Origin: Methanoculleus sp. MH98A
GTDB lineage: Archaea > Halobacteriota > Methanomicrobia > Methanomicrobiales > Methanoculleaceae
Length of the DNA: 41,239 nt
Direction of reading: 5' to 3'
Assembly (NCBI RefSeq): GCF_000691865.1
Contig: NZ_JMIO01000083.1
Coordinates: forward strand, 1-41,239
A program made the translations under genes and the position numbers. Positions 19,506 to 27,393 of the stretch are shown here, in pieces. The first letter of the stretch is position 1, and every line of letters begins with the position of its first letter. The notes beneath the pieces were generated by a model. The model was not told the DNA's origin. It saw only the letters and a list, made by a program, of their open reading frames with translations, and ran no database searches.

Positions 19506-19895
19506 ATGGCGGACCAGATCGGATACAGCCAGAAGGTGATGGAGCACTTCATGAACCCGCACAACGTCGGGGTGATCGAGAACCCGGACGGCTACGGCAA
19601 GGTCGGCAACCCCGTCTGCGGGGACATCATGGAGATCTTCATCAGGGTCAAAGACGACGTCATCGAGGATATCAGATTCCGGACGTTCGGGTGCGGGTCG
19701 GCGATCGCGACGAGCAGCATGGTGACCGACATGGCCAAAGGAAAGACGCTTGAGGAGGCGATGAAGATCACCCGCGACGACGTCGCGACCGAACTCGAGG
19801 GGCTCCCGCCCAGGAAGATGCACTGCTCGAATCTGGCGGCTGACGCGCTCCACGCGGCGATAGAGGATTACCGGGAAAAACAGAAGAAAGAGTGA
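19506..19895 (+). CDS. iscU: Iron-sulfur cluster assembly scaffold IscU/NifU
   Basis: This 129-residue protein is an IscU-type scaffold on which Fe-S clusters are built before transfer to apo-proteins. The three conserved cysteines are in place: VGNPVCGDIMEIF, FRTFGCGSAIATSS and PRKMHCSNLAADAL. The family opening YSQKVMEHFMNPHNVG is complete. GGTGG precedes the ATG with 5 nt spacing. No cysteine desulfurase (IscS/NifS) gene is beside it; the nearest sulfur-related gene is the TusA-like one upstream. The gene is convergent with the broken cofD. Confidence 0.95.
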   Translation: MADQIGYSQKVMEHFMNPHNVGVIENPDGYGKVGNPVCGDIMEIFIRVKDDVIEDIRFRTFGCGSAIATSSMVTDMAKGKTLEEAMKITRDDVATELEGLPPRKMHCSNLAADALHAAIEDYREKQKKE

Positions 19896-19904
19896 GGGGG
19901 CTTC

Positions 19905-20806
19905 TCAGCACCCGTAGACCAGGGTCAGGATGCTCTTTGCGAGGTCGAGGCTCTTGCCCCGGTTGACCATGAGTGTATCCTGGCGCAGCGCCCCTTCGAG
20001 TTCGACCGGGTCGCGGGTGTCCTGGATGAAGACGTCCACGAAGTCCTCGTAGAGATCGTAGGTTCCGGCGGACGAGGGCTCTTTTCCGAACGCCTGCATC
20101 AGGGCAGCCGCCGGGCCGCTGACCGGCGCATCCCCGATGAACGGGCTGACGGCGATGACGTTCTGCCGGCGGAGCGCCTCCCGCACCCCGGCGCACTCGA
20201 GGATCGGGGATACGCTCGTGACCGGGTTGCTCGGCCCGATCACGACGGCGTCGCTTTCCTCGATCGCTCGATGACTTCGTCGGTCGCGGCCGGCGGCTCA
20301 CTGAACTTCCGGACGACGCCGTCAATCGCGACGTCGCCCCGGTGCTTCACCCAGTACTCCTGGAAGTGTATCTCGCCCCGGAGCGTCCGGACGTAGGTCG
20401 TCACGACGGAATCGGTCATCGGGAGAATGGTCGCCCGGACGTCGAGCGTGCGGCAGAGTGTGCGGGTTATCTCCGTCAGCCCCATGCCGTTGCGGAGCAT
20501 CTCTCCCCGTGCTGCATGGATAGCCCGGTCCTGGTCGCCGACGGCGATATACTCTTCGATGCCGAGCCGTGCGAGGAGGTCGTGGGTGATGTAGGAGTCA
20601 TTGCGGATCCCCCACCACCGGTTGGTGTCGAGGATGCCCGCAAAGAGGTACATGACCGTGTCGATGTCGGGCGAGAGGTGGTTGCCGGAGAGCCAGGTGT
20701 CCTCGGCCGTGTTGACGACGACCGCGATATCCCGTTCGTCCAGCAGATCTCGCATCCCGCGGAGGAGTTTCGGGGTTCCGGTCCCGCCCGAGAGGAAGGT
20801 TATCAT
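19905..20806 (-). pseudogene. cofD: 2-phospho-L-lactate transferase CofD, canonical copy with frameshift
   Basis: CofD joins Fo to the activated phospholactyl group to give coenzyme F420-0. The N-terminal 180 residues read as canonical CofD ([55 protein letters not shown]) until [11 protein letters not shown] and a stop at 20240. The C-terminal 112 residues continue in another frame from [16 protein letters not shown] through [13 protein letters not shown] to the end. One missing base explains this: GAG-GCG-ATC-GAG-GAA is expected, and GAGCGATCGAGGAA is seen, a lost G (C on the plus strand) near 20267-20268. Repair restores [13 protein letters not shown], as in the intact neighbour. F420 is needed by methanogens, so a sequence error is quite possible. 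A TATA-like box (about 20835-20842) precedes the gene. Confidence 0.85.
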
Positions 20807-20879
20807 AGGATAATTAGCGTATCAAGTGCATCCGTATATGAATTTTCCCAAACTTTGCCCGGGGGTCAACGCCCCGAAT

Positions 20880-21782
20880 TCACGAAACGGCGTGGCGGAT
20901 GACCGCCATGATGTCCCAGGCGAGCGATTCGGCCTGCCGCTCGTGCATCAGGCGGGTTTCGAGGCGGAGCGATCCGGGGACGTCGTCGGGGTCGTGGATG
21001 TCCTGGACGAAGACGTCGACGATCTCCCCGTAGAGCCGGGAGACCGCCGGTGATGTGGGGGGCTCTCCGACGGCGTACATGAGGGCGGCGTCTTTTGGGT
21101 CCGGCGCGACGCCGCCCGAAAACGGCGAGACCGCGACGACGAACTTCTCAAGGAGGAGGTCCCGCATCCCGGCGCAGCCGAGGATGGGGAGGATGCTCGC
21201 CGCCGGGTTCGCGGGGCCGATCACGACGGCGTCGCTTTCCTCGATCGCCGCCCGCACCCCGTCCGTGACCGCCGGGGGCTTTCGCCCGACGAGTTCCCGG
21301 ACCTCTGTCCCGGGATCGGCGGCCATCCGGTACTCGAGGAGCGGGAGGAGATCGGTTCCGGTGTCGACGAAGAGGGCGGCGTCGCCGTCGGTCATCGGGA
21401 GGACGGTCGCCCCGATGTTGAGCGAGCGGCACTGGCGCTCGACCGCCCCGGTCAGGGTCAGGCCCTGGCGGAGGAGCGCCGCCCGGGCGATCTGGACCGC
21501 CCGGGCACGGTCGCCGACCGGGAAGGGTTCGCCGCCCGCCACCTTCGGGAGGTAGTTGTGGGTGGCGTAGGTGTCGCCCTTGATCCCCCACCACCGGTTG
21601 GTATCGAGGATGCCGGCAAAGAGGAAGACGGCGGTGTCGATGTCGGGCGCACAGTGACCGCCCGATACCCGGAGGTCCTCGGCGGTATTCGCGACCACGG
21701 CGATCTCGCTGTCGTAGAGGATCTGCCGGACGCCCCGGATGAGCGCAGGCGTCCCGGCTCCGCCGGAGAGGAAGGTGATCAT
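20880..21782 (-). CDS. CofD-like 2-phospho-L-lactate transferase paralogue, divergent
   Basis: This intact 300-residue CofD homologue lies 73 nt upstream of the broken copy on the same strand. It keeps [51 protein letters not shown] and [19 protein letters not shown]. At two places where canonical CofD is conserved it differs: FQEYW-KHRG becomes LLEYRMAADPG, and G-APVSGPA becomes SGGVAPDPKDA. These changes lie near the substrate pocket of the family, so it may use another phospho-acid or nucleotide substrate, or have lost activity. It arose by duplication, not recently, since the copies differ widely outside motifs. Confidence 0.82.
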   Translation of the reverse strand: MITFLSGGAGTPALIRGVRQILYDSEIAVVANTAEDLRVSGGHCAPDIDTAVFLFAGILDTNRWWGIKGDTYATHNYLPKVAGGEPFPVGDRARAVQIARAALLRQGLTLTGAVERQCRSLNIGATVLPMTDGDAALFVDTGTDLLPLLEYRMAADPGTEVRELVGRKPPAVTDGVRAAIEESDAVVIGPANPAASILPILGCAGMRDLLLEKFVVAVSPFSGGVAPDPKDAALMYAVGEPPTSPAVSRLYGEIVDVFVQDIHDPDDVPGSLRLETRLMHERQAESLAWDIMAVIRHAVS

Positions 21783-23220: not shown

Positions 23221-24429
23221 ATGAAGATCATCAAAGATCCGGTGCACGGCTACGTCGAGGCGGACGCGACGGCACTCCGGCTGCTCGACTCGGGGGTCGT
23301 CCAGCGGCTCCGCCACGTCACCCAGCTCGGGTTTGCAAACCTCGTCTACCCCGGGGCAAACCATACCCGGTTCGAGCACTCGCTCGGGACGATGCACCTT
23401 GCGGGCCTGATGTCGGGCCAGCTCGGGCTTGATAGGGATGAGACGAAACTCGTCACCACGGCCGCCCTCCTCCACGACATCGGCCACGGCCCCTTCTCCC
23501 ACGTCACCGAGCCGGTGATGGAGGAGTTCACGGGAAGGAGCCACCACCAGATCGATCGCCTCGTCCGCGAGGGAGCGACCGCGGGTATCCTCGAAGGCGA
23601 CGGGCTCGACCCCGCTGAGGTCTGCGCCGTCGTTGCGGGAAAGCACCGCCTCGCGAGCATCATCCACGGGAGCCTGGACGTCGACCGGATGGACTACCTG
23701 ATGCGGGACGCCCACTACACCGGCGTCCCCTACGGGACGGTCGACGCACACCGGCTTATCCGGAGCACCATCTTCACCGAATCGGGCATCGCCCTGCACG
23801 AAGGCGGGATCAACGCCGCCGAGTCGCTCCTCATCGCCCGGACCCTGATGCGCCCGGCGGTCTACTTCCACCACGTGAGCCGGATCGCGACGAGCATGTT
23901 CGTCCACGCCCTCCGCGAGGAGGTGCAGAACACCCCGGGCACGGACGCACACGAACTGATGCGGATGGATGACGCCGCCTGCATGGAGCGGCTGAAGCAC
24001 TCTTCCTGCGAAATTACCCGCGACCTCGCCCGCCGGGTCTACGCCCGGGACCTCTACAAGCGGGCGCTGTATATCGGCGAAGACCGGGTGAACGCCGCAG
24101 CCCTCCGCCAGGAACTCGGCCCCGCGAGGGAGCGGGAGATCGCCCGCGAGATCGCCGAGACCGCCGGGGTCACGGAGGACGAGGTTCTCGTCGATATCCC
24201 CCGGCTCCCCCGGGCGCTCTCGATGGAGGTCCGGGTCAGGAACAGCCACGCGATGGTGGAGATCGAGGAGGTCTCCCCCCTCATCAATACCCTGAACGAC
24301 ACCCGGCGACAGCAGTGGCGCCTCGGCGTCTACACCATACAGGAGCACCGGGACACCGTGGAGCAGGCGGCAACAGAGGTGCTCCGGGTGAAGCGGGCGA
24401 CAAAACAGGATAAACTCGTAGTGACATAG
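23221..24429 (+). CDS. HD-domain phosphohydrolase (dNTPase-like)
   Basis: This 402-residue protein belongs to the archaeal/bacterial HD family related to dNTP triphosphohydrolases and SAMHD1. The metal-binding residues are visible: His in NHTRFEHSLG (residues about 46-55), the HD pair in LLHDIGHGPFSH (about 80-91), and Asp in GSLDVDRMDYLMRDAHYTG (about 150-168). The opening IKDPVHGYVEADATALRLLD is typical. The usual activity is release of triphosphate from dNTPs, but many members are uncharacterised. Only 14 nt separate it from the flavin prenyltransferase gene, so it heads a four-gene operon of prenyl-FMN and isoprenoid enzymes. A role in phosphate removal there is speculative. Confidence 0.87.
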   Translation: MKIIKDPVHGYVEADATALRLLDSGVVQRLRHVTQLGFANLVYPGANHTRFEHSLGTMHLAGLMSGQLGLDRDETKLVTTAALLHDIGHGPFSHVTEPVMEEFTGRSHHQIDRLVREGATAGILEGDGLDPAEVCAVVAGKHRLASIIHGSLDVDRMDYLMRDAHYTGVPYGTVDAHRLIRSTIFTESGIALHEGGINAAESLLIARTLMRPAVYFHHVSRIATSMFVHALREEVQNTPGTDAHELMRMDDAACMERLKHSSCEITRDLARRVYARDLYKRALYIGEDRVNAAALRQELGPAREREIAREIAETAGVTEDEVLVDIPRLPRALSMEVRVRNSHAMVEIEEVSPLINTLNDTRRQQWRLGVYTIQEHRDTVEQAATEVLRVKRATKQDKLVVT

Positions 24430-24443
24430 TATATGGAGTGCGC

Positions 24444-24998
24444 ATGAAGAAAGAATTCGTCGTCGGGATCACCGGGGCAAGCGGGGTCGTCTACGCCCGC
24501 CGCCTCCTCGAGGTGCTCTGCGACCGGGCAACGGTGCATATCGTCATCTCCGATACCGCCCGGCAGATCGCCGGGATCGAAGACATCTATCTTGAGGGGT
24601 TCGACGCCGTATACGCCGAGAACAGCAACCTCGCGGCCGATATCGCGAGCGGGTCGTTTTGCTACGACGGGATGGCGATCGTGCCCTGCAGCATGAAGAC
24701 GCTTGCCGCCGTCAGCAACGGGTTCGCCGACAACCTGATCGCCCGGGCGGCGGACGTCTGCCTCAAGGAGAAGCGCCCGCTCCTCCTTCTGCTGCGGGAG
24801 ATGCCGCTCTCCCGGATCCACCTCAAAAACATGCTTGCCGCCGACGAGGCCGGCGCGACCGTGATGGTCGCAAGCCCTCCCTTCTACCAGCGCCCGCAGA
24901 CCATCGACGACCTCGTCGACATGGTGGTGGCCCGGGTGCTCGACCACATGGGGGTCGAACACGACCTCGGAACCCGATGGAGCGGATACGATGCGTAA
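24444..24998 (+). CDS. ubiX: UbiX-family flavin prenyltransferase
   Basis: This 184-residue protein has UbiX/Pad1 length and motifs: VGITGASGVVYARRLLEVL at the N-terminus (FMN binding), PCSMKTLAAVSNGFADNLIARAADV, the RPLLLLLREMPLSRIHLKNM segment, and the C-terminal DLVDMVVARVLDHMGV. Known reaction: it attaches a dimethylallyl group to FMNH2 to make prenylated FMN, the cofactor of UbiD decarboxylases. The ATG at 24444 has GGAG 5 nt upstream. The gene overlaps the UbiD-family gene by 8 nt, so cofactor maker and cofactor user are translated together. Confidence 0.93.
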   Translation: MKKEFVVGITGASGVVYARRLLEVLCDRATVHIVISDTARQIAGIEDIYLEGFDAVYAENSNLAADIASGSFCYDGMAIVPCSMKTLAAVSNGFADNLIARAADVCLKEKRPLLLLLREMPLSRIHLKNMLAADEAGATVMVASPPFYQRPQTIDDLVDMVVARVLDHMGVEHDLGTRWSGYDA

Positions 24999-26232
24999 CT
25001 TTATCGAACTGATGCGCCAGCAGGGCAGGGTCGAGGAGATCGAGAGCCCCTGCTCGACCGTCTACGAGGCTCCCCGTATGGCGAGCCGGACGGATAAGAT
25101 CCTCTTCTTCCACGACCTCGACGGCCGCCGGGGAGTGATGAACCTCCTCTCCGACCGCCGATCGCTTGCGGCGGCGCTCGGCGTGGAGGAGCGGGACCTC
25201 GTCGGACACCTCGCGGGCATGACCTGCAGCGGCCGCGTCGTGGATGCCGGACGGCTTGAGGGCGGCATCCCTGCCGACCTCTCCCGCCTCCCGGTCATGA
25301 AACACTTCCCCGGCGACGCCGGGCGCTACTTCACCTCCGGGATCGTCTTCTCGCGCTACGACGGCGTCGAGAACGCCTCCATCCACCGGATGATGGTCCT
25401 CGACGACGGAAGAGTCGTCGCCCGCCTGGTGGAAGGACGGCACACCCATACCCTCCTCAAAGAGGCGCTCGCCCGCGGGGAGAAACTCCCGGTCGCGGTC
25501 ACCGTCGGCACCCATCCGCTGGTGACGTTCGCCGCCTGCACCCGCGTCCCGGAGGGCAAGGAACTCGCCTACGCGGCGGAACTGATGGGCGGGGAACTCG
25601 CTGTGCGGGAGTGCGAGAACGGCGTCCGGGTTCCCGACGCCGAGATCGTCCTCGAAGGCTACATCGGTGCCGAAAAGGCGACGGAAGGGCCGTTCGTCGA
25701 CATCACCGGCACCTACGACCCCGTGCGCCAGCAGCACGTGATCGAGTTCACGAAGATGTACTGCAAGGAGGACCCCATCTACCACGGCATCCTCCCGGCC
25801 GGCGACGAGCACAAACTCCTGATGGGAGCGCCGTACGAGCCGAAGATCTACCGTGCCGTGGGCGAGGTGACGACGGTCAGAGACGTCCTCCTCACGAAGG
25901 GCGGCGCCGGCTACCTTCACGGGGTGGTGCAGATCCGCAAAAATACGCAGGGAGACGCGAAGAACGCCATCATGGCGGCGTTCGCCGCCCATACGTCCCT
26001 CAAACACGTCGTGGTGGTGGACGAGGATATCGACATCCACGATCCCCACGACGTCGAATACGCGATCGCGACGAGGGTGCGGGGCGACACCGACATCATG
26101 GTCGTCACCGGCGTCCGGGGTTCGTCGCTCGATCCGACGCGGCTGGGTGACGGGACGAACGTGAAGGTCGGGGTCGACGCCACGATGGTCATGGGAAAAG
26201 AGGACGAATTCAGAAGAGCGGAGTGGGTGTAG
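24991..26232 (+). CDS. UbiD-family decarboxylase, probable anhydromevalonate phosphate decarboxylase
   Basis: This 413-residue protein is a UbiD-family, prenyl-FMN-dependent decarboxylase. It shows FTSGIVFSRYDGVENASIHRM in the flavin-binding middle and the active-site pair of glutamates in LEGYIGAEKATEGPFVDITG. In archaea, a UbiD homologue of about this length decarboxylates trans-anhydromevalonate 5-phosphate to isopentenyl phosphate in the modified mevalonate pathway. That assignment is favoured because the next gene, directly adjacent, is the aconitase-X protein that makes the substrate. The start at 24991 lies inside the end of ubiX. The alternative is an aromatic-acid decarboxylase of the same family, less likely in this setting. 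Confidence 0.87.
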   Translation: MRNFIELMRQQGRVEEIESPCSTVYEAPRMASRTDKILFFHDLDGRRGVMNLLSDRRSLAAALGVEERDLVGHLAGMTCSGRVVDAGRLEGGIPADLSRLPVMKHFPGDAGRYFTSGIVFSRYDGVENASIHRMMVLDDGRVVARLVEGRHTHTLLKEALARGEKLPVAVTVGTHPLVTFAACTRVPEGKELAYAAELMGGELAVRECENGVRVPDAEIVLEGYIGAEKATEGPFVDITGTYDPVRQQHVIEFTKMYCKEDPIYHGILPAGDEHKLLMGAPYEPKIYRAVGEVTTVRDVLLTKGGAGYLHGVVQIRKNTQGDAKNAIMAAFAAHTSLKHVVVVDEDIDIHDPHDVEYAIATRVRGDTDIMVVTGVRGSSLDPTRLGDGTNVKVGVDATMVMGKEDEFRRAEWV

Positions 26233-27393
26233 ATGTATCTTGACAACGATGACGAGAGGGTGCTTGCCGGCGAGTTCGGCGAGACCCGGCAGAAGATGAT
26301 GGAGATCCTGGTCGCGCTCGGGGAGGTCTACGGGGCGGAGAAACTCGTCCCGATCGCGAGCGCCCAGGTGAGCGGTGCGTCCTACAAGACCATTGGAAAA
26401 TGGGGGCTTGCCTGGCTGCAGAGCCTCAATGCCCGGGCGGCGGTCCCGGCGGTCTTGAACCCCATCGGGATGCCGCGGGAGGGGTGGCAGGAGTTCGGGA
26501 TCGGCGAGGAGTTCGCCCGCCGTCAGGCGGAGGTCGTCGAGGCCTACCGGAAGCTCGGGATCCGGGTGGAATGCACCTGCACGCCCTATTACCTGCGGAT
26601 CACGGAGTACGGGGAGCACCTGGCCTGGTCGGAGTCCTCGGCGGTCGCCTACGCGAACTCGGTTCTCGGCGCCCGGACGAACCGGGAAGGCGGACCGAGC
26701 GCCCTTGCGGCGGCGATCATAGGAAAGACCCCCTACTACGGCCTGCATATCGTCGAGAACCGGCGGCCGCAGGTCGTCGTGGAGGTCGAGTGTGGCACGG
26801 GCCCGCACGCCGGCCACTGGGGCGCCATCGGCCACGTCGCCGGGAAGAAGGTGGGGAACCGGATCCCGATCTTTGCCGGTATCCGGCCGGGCCGCGATCA
26901 CCTCAAAGCCCTCGGCGCCGCGATGGCGGCGACCGGCGCGGTCGCCCTCTTCCACGTGGATAAGATCACCCCCGAGGCAAGGGTATTCTCGTTTGATACC
27001 GACAGCCTCGACCGGGTGACGGTGACGGCGGACGAGGTCGAAGCCCTCTTTACCGAGACCGAGGTCGAGGCGGTCGCGGTCGGGTGCCCGCACTGCTCCG
27101 CCGACGAGCTCCGGGAACTCGCGGAACTTCTGCGGGGAAAGACGACGACGAAACCCTTCTACATCTTCGCCGCGAGGGGGGTCGCGAAGCACAACCCCGA
27201 CCTCGTGAGCGTCATCGAGCGGAGCGGCGCCCGGGTGATCCCGGACACCTGCATGGTTGTCTCGCCCCGGATGGACGAGTTCGCTTCGATCATGGTCGAC
27301 TCGGGCAAAGCCCTCGCCTACGTCCCCGGGATGTGCGGGGCGGTCGCCCGGATCGGGACGAGGAAAGAGTGCGTCGAAGTCGCGACGTCGTGA
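26233..27393 (+). CDS. Aconitase X, probable phosphomevalonate dehydratase large subunit
   Basis: This 386-residue protein is an AcnX catalytic-domain (formerly DUF521) protein. In archaea the large subunit of phosphomevalonate 5-dehydratase has this form and removes water from (R)-mevalonate 5-phosphate to give trans-anhydromevalonate phosphate, using an Fe-S cluster. Candidate cluster cysteines occur in VECTCTPYYLR, VGCPHCSADEL and PGMCGAVARIGT. The swivelling small subunit (AcnX small, formerly DUF126), needed for activity, is not in this window and must be encoded elsewhere. The ATG follows the decarboxylase stop with no gap, so the genes are coupled. Confidence 0.88.
   Translation: MYLDNDDERVLAGEFGETRQKMMEILVALGEVYGAEKLVPIASAQVSGASYKTIGKWGLAWLQSLNARAAVPAVLNPIGMPREGWQEFGIGEEFARRQAEVVEAYRKLGIRVECTCTPYYLRITEYGEHLAWSESSAVAYANSVLGARTNREGGPSALAAAIIGKTPYYGLHIVENRRPQVVVEVECGTGPHAGHWGAIGHVAGKKVGNRIPIFAGIRPGRDHLKALGAAMAATGAVALFHVDKITPEARVFSFDTDSLDRVTVTADEVEALFTETEVEAVAVGCPHCSADELRELAELLRGKTTTKPFYIFAARGVAKHNPDLVSVIERSGARVIPDTCMVVSPRMDEFASIMVDSGKALAYVPGMCGAVARIGTRKECVEVATS

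Follow-up and report, generated by a model that had tools for sequence, protein, structure and literature searches.

Conservation of a divergent CofD paralogue beside the canonical cofD of Methanoculleus: a candidate non-catalytic partner in F420 synthesis

F420 carries electrons in methanogenesis, and no archaeal regulator of its synthesis is known to us. In the window, by which we mean the whole 41,239-nucleotide stretch of Methanoculleus sp. MH98A analyzed here, two genes for CofD homologues lie side by side, a canonical one (cofD1) with a broken reading frame and an intact one (cofD2) with divergent loops. The locus raises the question which of the two copies serves F420 synthesis and what the other one is kept for. 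Our best explanation, held with about even confidence, is that cofD2 encodes an old non-catalytic CofD paralogue which is kept by selection and acts on CofD1, CofC or the F420 supply. As part of this explanation cofD1 would encode the LPPG:Fo transferase that is at work in this Methanoculleus.

As listed in Table 1, the pair consists of three open reading frames of 300, 188 and 112 amino acids, all of which were matched by the cofD profile TIGR01819. According to the ORF list and the profile search both genes are encoded on the minus strand in head-to-tail order; with respect to transcription cofD2 comes first, followed by a 73-base gap and cofD1. The intact copy scored 229.5 bits and the two shorter frames, which are read in different frames, 224.2 and 111.5 bits; as these two match consecutive segments of the profile they are pieces of one gene. 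A preliminary description had located two head-to-tail homologues at 19905-21782, one broken and one divergent with altered loops, and the ORFs, the profile matches, the cofD2 translation and the alignment bear this out, coordinates included. No further cofD match was found by the profile search of the own genome (2.54 Mb in 306 contigs, one of which is the window contig), so that there is no intact spare copy.

Table 1 Features of the cofD locus (positions in the window)
Feature	Position	Strand	Evidence
cofD2, intact divergent CofD paralogue, 300 aa	20880..21782	-	ORF; TIGR01819 229.5 bits, under the curated cut-off of 257.45; predicted structure
cofD1 first part, canonical CofD, N-terminal ~180 residues ahead of the frame break	20240..20806	-	ORF; TIGR01819 1-189
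cofD1 second part, other frame, C-terminal part	19905..20243	-	ORF; TIGR01819 193-300
32-base stretch of cofD1 identical to cofD2 21217-21248, ending at the frame break	20236..20267	-	sequence comparison
Identical 32 bases within cofD2	21217..21248	-	sequence comparison
Promoter-like A+T-rich box GGGAAAATTCATATACG in the 73-base cofD2-cofD1 gap	20833..20849	-	gap sequences compared
NifU-type scaffold gene, convergent neighbour of cofD1	19506..19895	+	TIGR03419 211.9 bits
HD-domain protein gene, divergent neighbour on the cofD2 side	23221..24429	+	profile match

The box GGGAAAATTCATATACG in the gap resembles an archaeal promoter and is probably cofD1's own. Within 70 bases 5' of cofD1, AAAATTCATAT was found exactly in 20 of the 29 loci of relatives, and this conservation suggests that cofD2 and cofD1 need not be co-transcribed. 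At 23221-27393 the HD gene, ubiX, ubiD and an aconitase-X-like gene stand in a row, and such genes adjoin cofD in many loci of the order; ubiX, ubiD and the aconitase-X-like gene recall what we take to be the archaeal mevalonate route.

The pair was compared with its relatives in 35 genomes of the genus and, by an order-wide profile survey, in 150 genomes of Methanomicrobiales, whose families are coded f1 (that of Methanoculleus) to f6. Full-length, unbroken cofD2 is present in 29 of the 35 genus genomes; it is partial in G022, G027, G032 and G033 and was not seen in G019 and G020. A gap was measurable in 29 loci, including L008 and L012 with their incomplete cofD2. In all 29 both genes lie on the same strand 66 to 497 bases apart, and 23 of these gaps are 66 to 73 bases long. 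In G021 some 3 kb separate the two copies, which are encoded on opposite strands. Close relatives with a single cofD, which the preliminary description had named, together with reads showing the missing base, as reducing the pair to an error plus a recent duplication, were not what the genus presented; the pair is genus-wide and probably older than the genus.

Outside the genus, more than one cofD match was obtained for four of the five further f1 genomes (the extra matches of G122 being pieces of one cofD2), and G145 has one match, CofD2 not being seen there. In f2, 23 of 28 genomes gave at least two matches, one gave one and four gave none; the second match was confirmed as CofD2 in the eight f2 stretches read and in three further named loci. 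A single match was recorded for 83 of the 88 genomes of f3 to f6 (10/11 in f3, 11/12 in f4, 30/33 in f5, where two genomes gave none, and 32/32 in f6), with no match in four and two matches in one, the f5 genome G153, both of which are canonical. Thus cofD2 occurs in two families, f1 and f2, and because G145 and these 83 genomes have one cofD, CofD2 is unnecessary for F420 in general. In the tree Methanomicrobium mobile, with two copies, groups with f2, Methanofollis with f4 and Methanocorpusculum with f6. Among the open-access papers listed in literature searches on cofD and FbiA, a scope that mostly leaves subscription literature outside, no title or beginning of an abstract described a cofD pair.

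A side observation concerns the f2 loci, in which cofD1 and cofD2 enclose a same-strand gene for a DUF7544-related membrane protein in all eight stretches L069-L076 as well as in L125 and L126. The three f2 DUF7544-like proteins scanned all matched PF24400, and no such gene lies between the cofD copies of Methanomicrobium (L127, L128). The genes of locus L125 are ordered as in f2, with which this locus also groups, and the name under which it is recorded, Methanoculleus sp. SpSt-1212, may be wrong.

For the residue analysis 73 canonical CofDs (45 from pair genomes and 28 single ones), 43 CofD2s (32 from f1 and 11 from f2), M. mazei CofD and FbiA were aligned. As repeats of included genomes, 20 Methanoculleus loci (L084-L103) together with L111, L130 and L133 were excluded, as were six duplicated rows, any row no longer than 250 aa and the loci above L133, which belong to other orders. 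Residues are numbered as in Methanoculleus CofD1, whose D47 corresponds in the alignment to D46 of M. mazei CofD and D57 of FbiA. Extracts of PMC7253369 assign the metal of FbiA to D45 and D57, its Fo pocket to residues 69-102 and 145-189 and the closure over GDP to residues 239-254, and a section of the review PMC8498797 names M. mazei D46, the equal of FbiA D57, as important for activity.

Thirteen positions are invariant in all 73 canonical CofDs: K13, N32, E/D35, D36, D47, D49, H147, Q149, W152, N194, S221, G231 and P232. With gaps scored as not kept, the 32 CofD2s of f1 retain K13 in 0, N32 in 23, E/D35 in 23, D36 in 27, D47 in 25, D49 in 30, H147 in 1, Q149 in 0, W152 in 8, N194 in 27, S221 in 32, G231 in 1 and P232 in 0 cases. 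For the 11 CofD2s of f2, one of which (L128) aligns poorly at its N-terminus, the corresponding numbers are K13 8, N32 2, E/D35 10, D36 0, D47 3, D49 9, H147 3, Q149 0, W152 0, N194 4, S221 3, G231 3 and P232 1. Thus Q149 is kept in none of the 43 CofD2s, P232 in one, H147 and G231 in four each and W152 in eight. In the window copy K13, H147, Q149, W152, G231 and P232 are gone and the rest of the 13 are kept, including N32, D36, N194 and both metal ligands, E35 and D47. The HFQxxW motif of the Fo-pocket subdomain is missing from it, PLLEYR standing in its place, and so is the SGPA lid over GDP, where DPKD is found. One or both metal ligands are changed in 20 of the 43 CofD2s (19 of 42 without L128), both of them in five, and the other 23 of the 43 keep the two; on the CofD2 tree D47 changed state eight times and E/D35 six times (nine and seven without L128).

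Other parts of the protein are well preserved. All 43 CofD2s have R94 and G90, and the WWG and GD..RA segments occur in most f1 copies. Conservation is also seen in the f1 lid PDPKDA itself (D230 in 28, K232 in 29 and D233 in 28 of 32), so that this lid looks like a binding site in use. W291 of the C-terminal helix is found in all 41 CofD2s with a letter at this position, in 14 of the 28 single CofDs and in none of the 44 CofD1s of pair genomes; this pattern looks reciprocal between CofD2 and CofD1, and relatedness alone could explain it.

The preliminary description had offered two functional enzymes with different substrates as part of one of its cases. As a leading idea this is not supported, given the loss of Fo-pocket and GDP-lid residues that are invariant in 73 canonical CofDs and, in 20 of 43 CofD2s, of a metal ligand. 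The lost parts serve irrespective of the phospho-acid that is transferred. We nevertheless weighed, as rather unlikely, the reading of CofD2 as a functioning transferase for a different donor or acceptor, in which the rebuilt lid and the loop on the Fo side would accommodate another activated phospho-acid or another alcohol. A changed activity is conceivable because the window CofD2 and 22 others keep both metal ligands, and the conserved f1 lid, the constraint on the gene (dN/dS 0.28, see below) and the filtering between donors ascribed to CofD in passages of PMC8764529 point the same way. However, the metal ligands were lost repeatedly, with the eight D47 changes on the CofD2 tree, and the five loci with both ligands changed each lie beside an open cofD1. 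Furthermore, in the rows compared the f2 lids are unrelated to the f1 lid, so that no single new substrate fits all CofD2s.

The other F420 genes argue against this reading as well. Exactly one cofC above the cut-off was found in 33 of the 35 genus genomes and none has two; extra weak matches of 28-42 bits occur in 12 of these 33, one further genome has a weak match alone and one has none. For cofE, at least two matches were obtained in 139 of the 150 genomes of the order, and families with a single cofD are no exception. A separate alternative-substrate pathway for cofD2 was accordingly rejected, as there is no second cofC above the cut-off and the second cofE does not track cofD2. The own genome carries, outside the window, two cofE genes (G000:C24:17047-18378 and G000:C100:11075-11752), one adjoining cofC in convergent orientation and the other elsewhere with a higher score.

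The predicted structure of CofD2 (pLDDT 95.4, pTM 0.93) is closest to M. mazei CofD (3c3d; TM 0.94, rmsd 1.8, 34-36% identity). The CofD2 sequence thus suits the CofD fold, with the reservation that the alignment behind the model includes true CofDs and the model is no independent proof. As to the profile scores, the window CofD2 misses the TIGR01819 cut-off (Table 1), and the full-length CofD2s among the matches listed reach 133-256 bits. More distantly, the model resembles structures of UPF0052 (2ppv, TM 0.61; 2o2z, TM 0.52-0.59), which we take to be the YvcK family. This common fold leads to a further reading, that CofD2 is a sensor or carrier which binds Fo, F420-0, GDP or another nucleotide and acts on proteins other than CofD1, like GlmR/YvcK with UDP-GlcNAc. 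Extracts of PMC7525490 and PMC6171935 provide GlmR as a precedent and extracts of PMC5091766 describe the likeness of YvcK to CofD. Against it, CofD2 reached 22.3 bits with the YvcK/GlmR model TIGR01826, far below the cut-off of 196, and its Fo pocket has lost HFQxxW; we regard the sensor or carrier reading as unlikely.

Median dN/dS values, derived from 351 pairs of the 27 genomes with both genes, were 0.28 for CofD2 and 0.20 for CofD1. CofD2 evolves faster, and its value, well below 1, indicates purifying selection. Within f1 the segments 53-100 are conserved at 0.87-0.88 in CofD2 vs 0.80-0.85 in CofD1 and the C-terminal helix at 0.83 vs 0.82, and CofD2 is less conserved than CofD1 at the glycine loop, the metal strand, the Fo subdomain and the lid. 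The higher rate, a cofD2 in pieces in G122 and shortened in G033 (both draft assemblies) and the fact that cofD2 was not seen in G145 would fit a redundant, functionless copy in slow decay. Slow decay is improbable in view of the purifying selection, the full-length open gene in most of the genus, its occurrence in two families and the outer segments, which are conserved like those of CofD1.

Regarding the frame break, the two cofD1 frames meet near 20267, and blastn of the cofD region against the complete genome G007 placed a frame-changing gap at 20268, in agreement with the single-base loss which the preliminary description had reported near 20267 in the canonical copy. Of the 35 genus genomes, the own one included, 30 carry a canonical cofD above the TIGR01819 cut-off which covers nearly the whole model without stops. 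Among the 31 Methanoculleus genomes that span the gene cofD1 is open in 30, this assembly being the sole broken one, and the open genes of the 30 relatives score 333-374 bits (that of L004 extends to 349 aa). The genus genomes without an open cofD1 are the own one, G019 (a short fragment), G020 (none) and G027 and G032, in which the cofD2 match stands alone at a contig end. The window cofD1 has canonical loops, and both of its parts gave dN/dS values of 0.11-0.30 vs four relatives, so the gene looks constrained like an active one.

The break adjoins the edge of the 32-base stretch that is identical in cofD1 and cofD2, a place where an assembly may fail. This is suggestive at most, since comparable shared stretches occur at this position in some intact relatives (36 bases long in L011 and L030). 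Compared with G007 the window has three more frame differences, near 31.8, 36.4 and 38.2 kb, which could be errors in either sequence or true changes. Because 30 of the 31 spanning genomes have cofD1 open, the break most probably reflects an error in sequencing or assembly, or else a mutation that arose very recently. Of the two cases offered by the preliminary description, a frameshift error with two normally intact genes fits best, without the two-enzyme idea attached to it; F420 synthesis that now depends on the divergent enzyme would need a real break, for which this assembly is the one case. That the break is real and fixed here is very improbable, for although the assembly is without another cofD and the window CofD2 has its metal ligands, the constraint on both cofD1 parts, the intact gene in all 30 other spanning genomes and the repeat edge at the site speak against it.

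The origin of CofD2 was addressed by trees, all built by a quick method. The CofD2s of f1 and f2 lie on one side of a branch (SH-aLRT 96), and a single origin is likely. A recent duplication inside Methanoculleus was rejected on the same grounds. The tests disfavor a duplication within f2 (AU p 0.0035) as well as one within f1 (p 0.026), with the caveats that duplication inside f1 is not rejected when every f2 CofD2 is left out (p 0.161), that long branches meet among the f2 CofD2s and that f1 and f2 differ in gene order. When rooted on other archaea, the tree groups the CofD2s with the single cofDs of f4, f6 and G145, away from CofD1 (support 93, not starred). Placing every f1 and f2 copy in a single clade is disfavored (AU p 0.017), and one clade of the f1 and f2 CofD1s was neither recovered nor rejected (p 0.306). 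The gene order is HD, D2, D1 in f1 and HD, D1, DUF7544, D2 in f2. In f1, cofD2 thus sits beside the divergent HD gene, the place of the single cofD elsewhere. From this place and the rooted grouping the divergent cofD2 is likely the old resident of the locus and cofD1 another lineage; the HD-adjacent place of cofD1 in f2, the long f2 branches and the p value of 0.161 weigh against it. The C-terminal ESLAW motif was dropped as a derived mark of CofD2, W291 being present in half of the single CofDs; this residue is probably ancestral and hence no independent proof of one origin.

Taken together, the conserved pair, the lost active-site residues, the purifying selection, a sequence suited to the CofD fold, the conserved non-active-site parts and the single cofC lead us to the reading of CofD2 as a dead paralogue; loss of activity, a partner and a regulatory role are what we infer from them. 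CofD2 would retain the fold and the outer features of CofD, most likely without transferase activity, and selection would keep it as a non-catalytic partner. By analogy with dimeric CofD and FbiA it may bind CofD1, or it may bind CofC, whose activity needs CofD, and so tune the flux into F420. The main counter-evidence is the retention of both metal ligands in the window CofD2 and 22 others and the conserved PDPKDA lid; the promoter-like box, the faster evolution of CofD2 and the existence of single-cofD families also weigh against this explanation. A bolder version, which we put forward as an unlikely one, is a CofD of two subunits, a catalytic CofD1 without the C-terminal tryptophan and an obligate dead CofD2 that retains it; CofD2, the older resident, would have become regulatory once catalysis had passed to a second cofD lineage, and would now act as a gate through which Fo enters F420.

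If the dead-paralogue reading is true, a conserved, inactive-looking CofD beside an active one would offer a first handle on the control of F420 synthesis. It would also be a warning that not every CofD-like ORF should be annotated as a transferase and that the divergent loops of CofD2 should not be taken as the sign of a novel F420 type. The sole open cofD of this assembly is the divergent copy, and an annotation pipeline could easily mistake CofD2 for the F420 enzyme.

Among known systems, CofD itself (TIGR01819; M. mazei 3c3d/3c3e) shares with CofD2 the fold, the genomic locus and, in most f1 copies, the WWG and GD..RA segments, whereas CofD2 differs by its sub-cut-off score, the lost HFQxxW motif and SGPA lid and, in 20 of 43 cases, a changed metal ligand. 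FbiA, the phosphoenolpyruvate-using mycobacterial CofD (6uvx-6uw7), has the same fold (TM 0.84-0.90), and its metal aspartates map to E35 and D47; in contrast to CofD2 it keeps HFQ..W, and it is no nearer to CofD2 (75.2 bits) than to CofD1 (102.9 bits for the first part alone). According to extracts of PMC7253369, CofD and FbiA are dimeric in crystals, FbiA also in solution, with one subunit open and one closed in the FbiA crystals, and a section of PMC8498797 describes the activity of CofC as dependent on CofD. The UDP-GlcNAc-binding YvcK/GlmR (TIGR01826) has the distant fold in common with CofD2 and a sequence match far below the cut-off, and CofD2 is not known to have a connection to UDP-GlcNAc. 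In the extracts cited above, GlmR stands as a precedent for a CofD-like protein that is a regulator and not a maker of F420, the kind of part that CofD2 may play beside CofD1.
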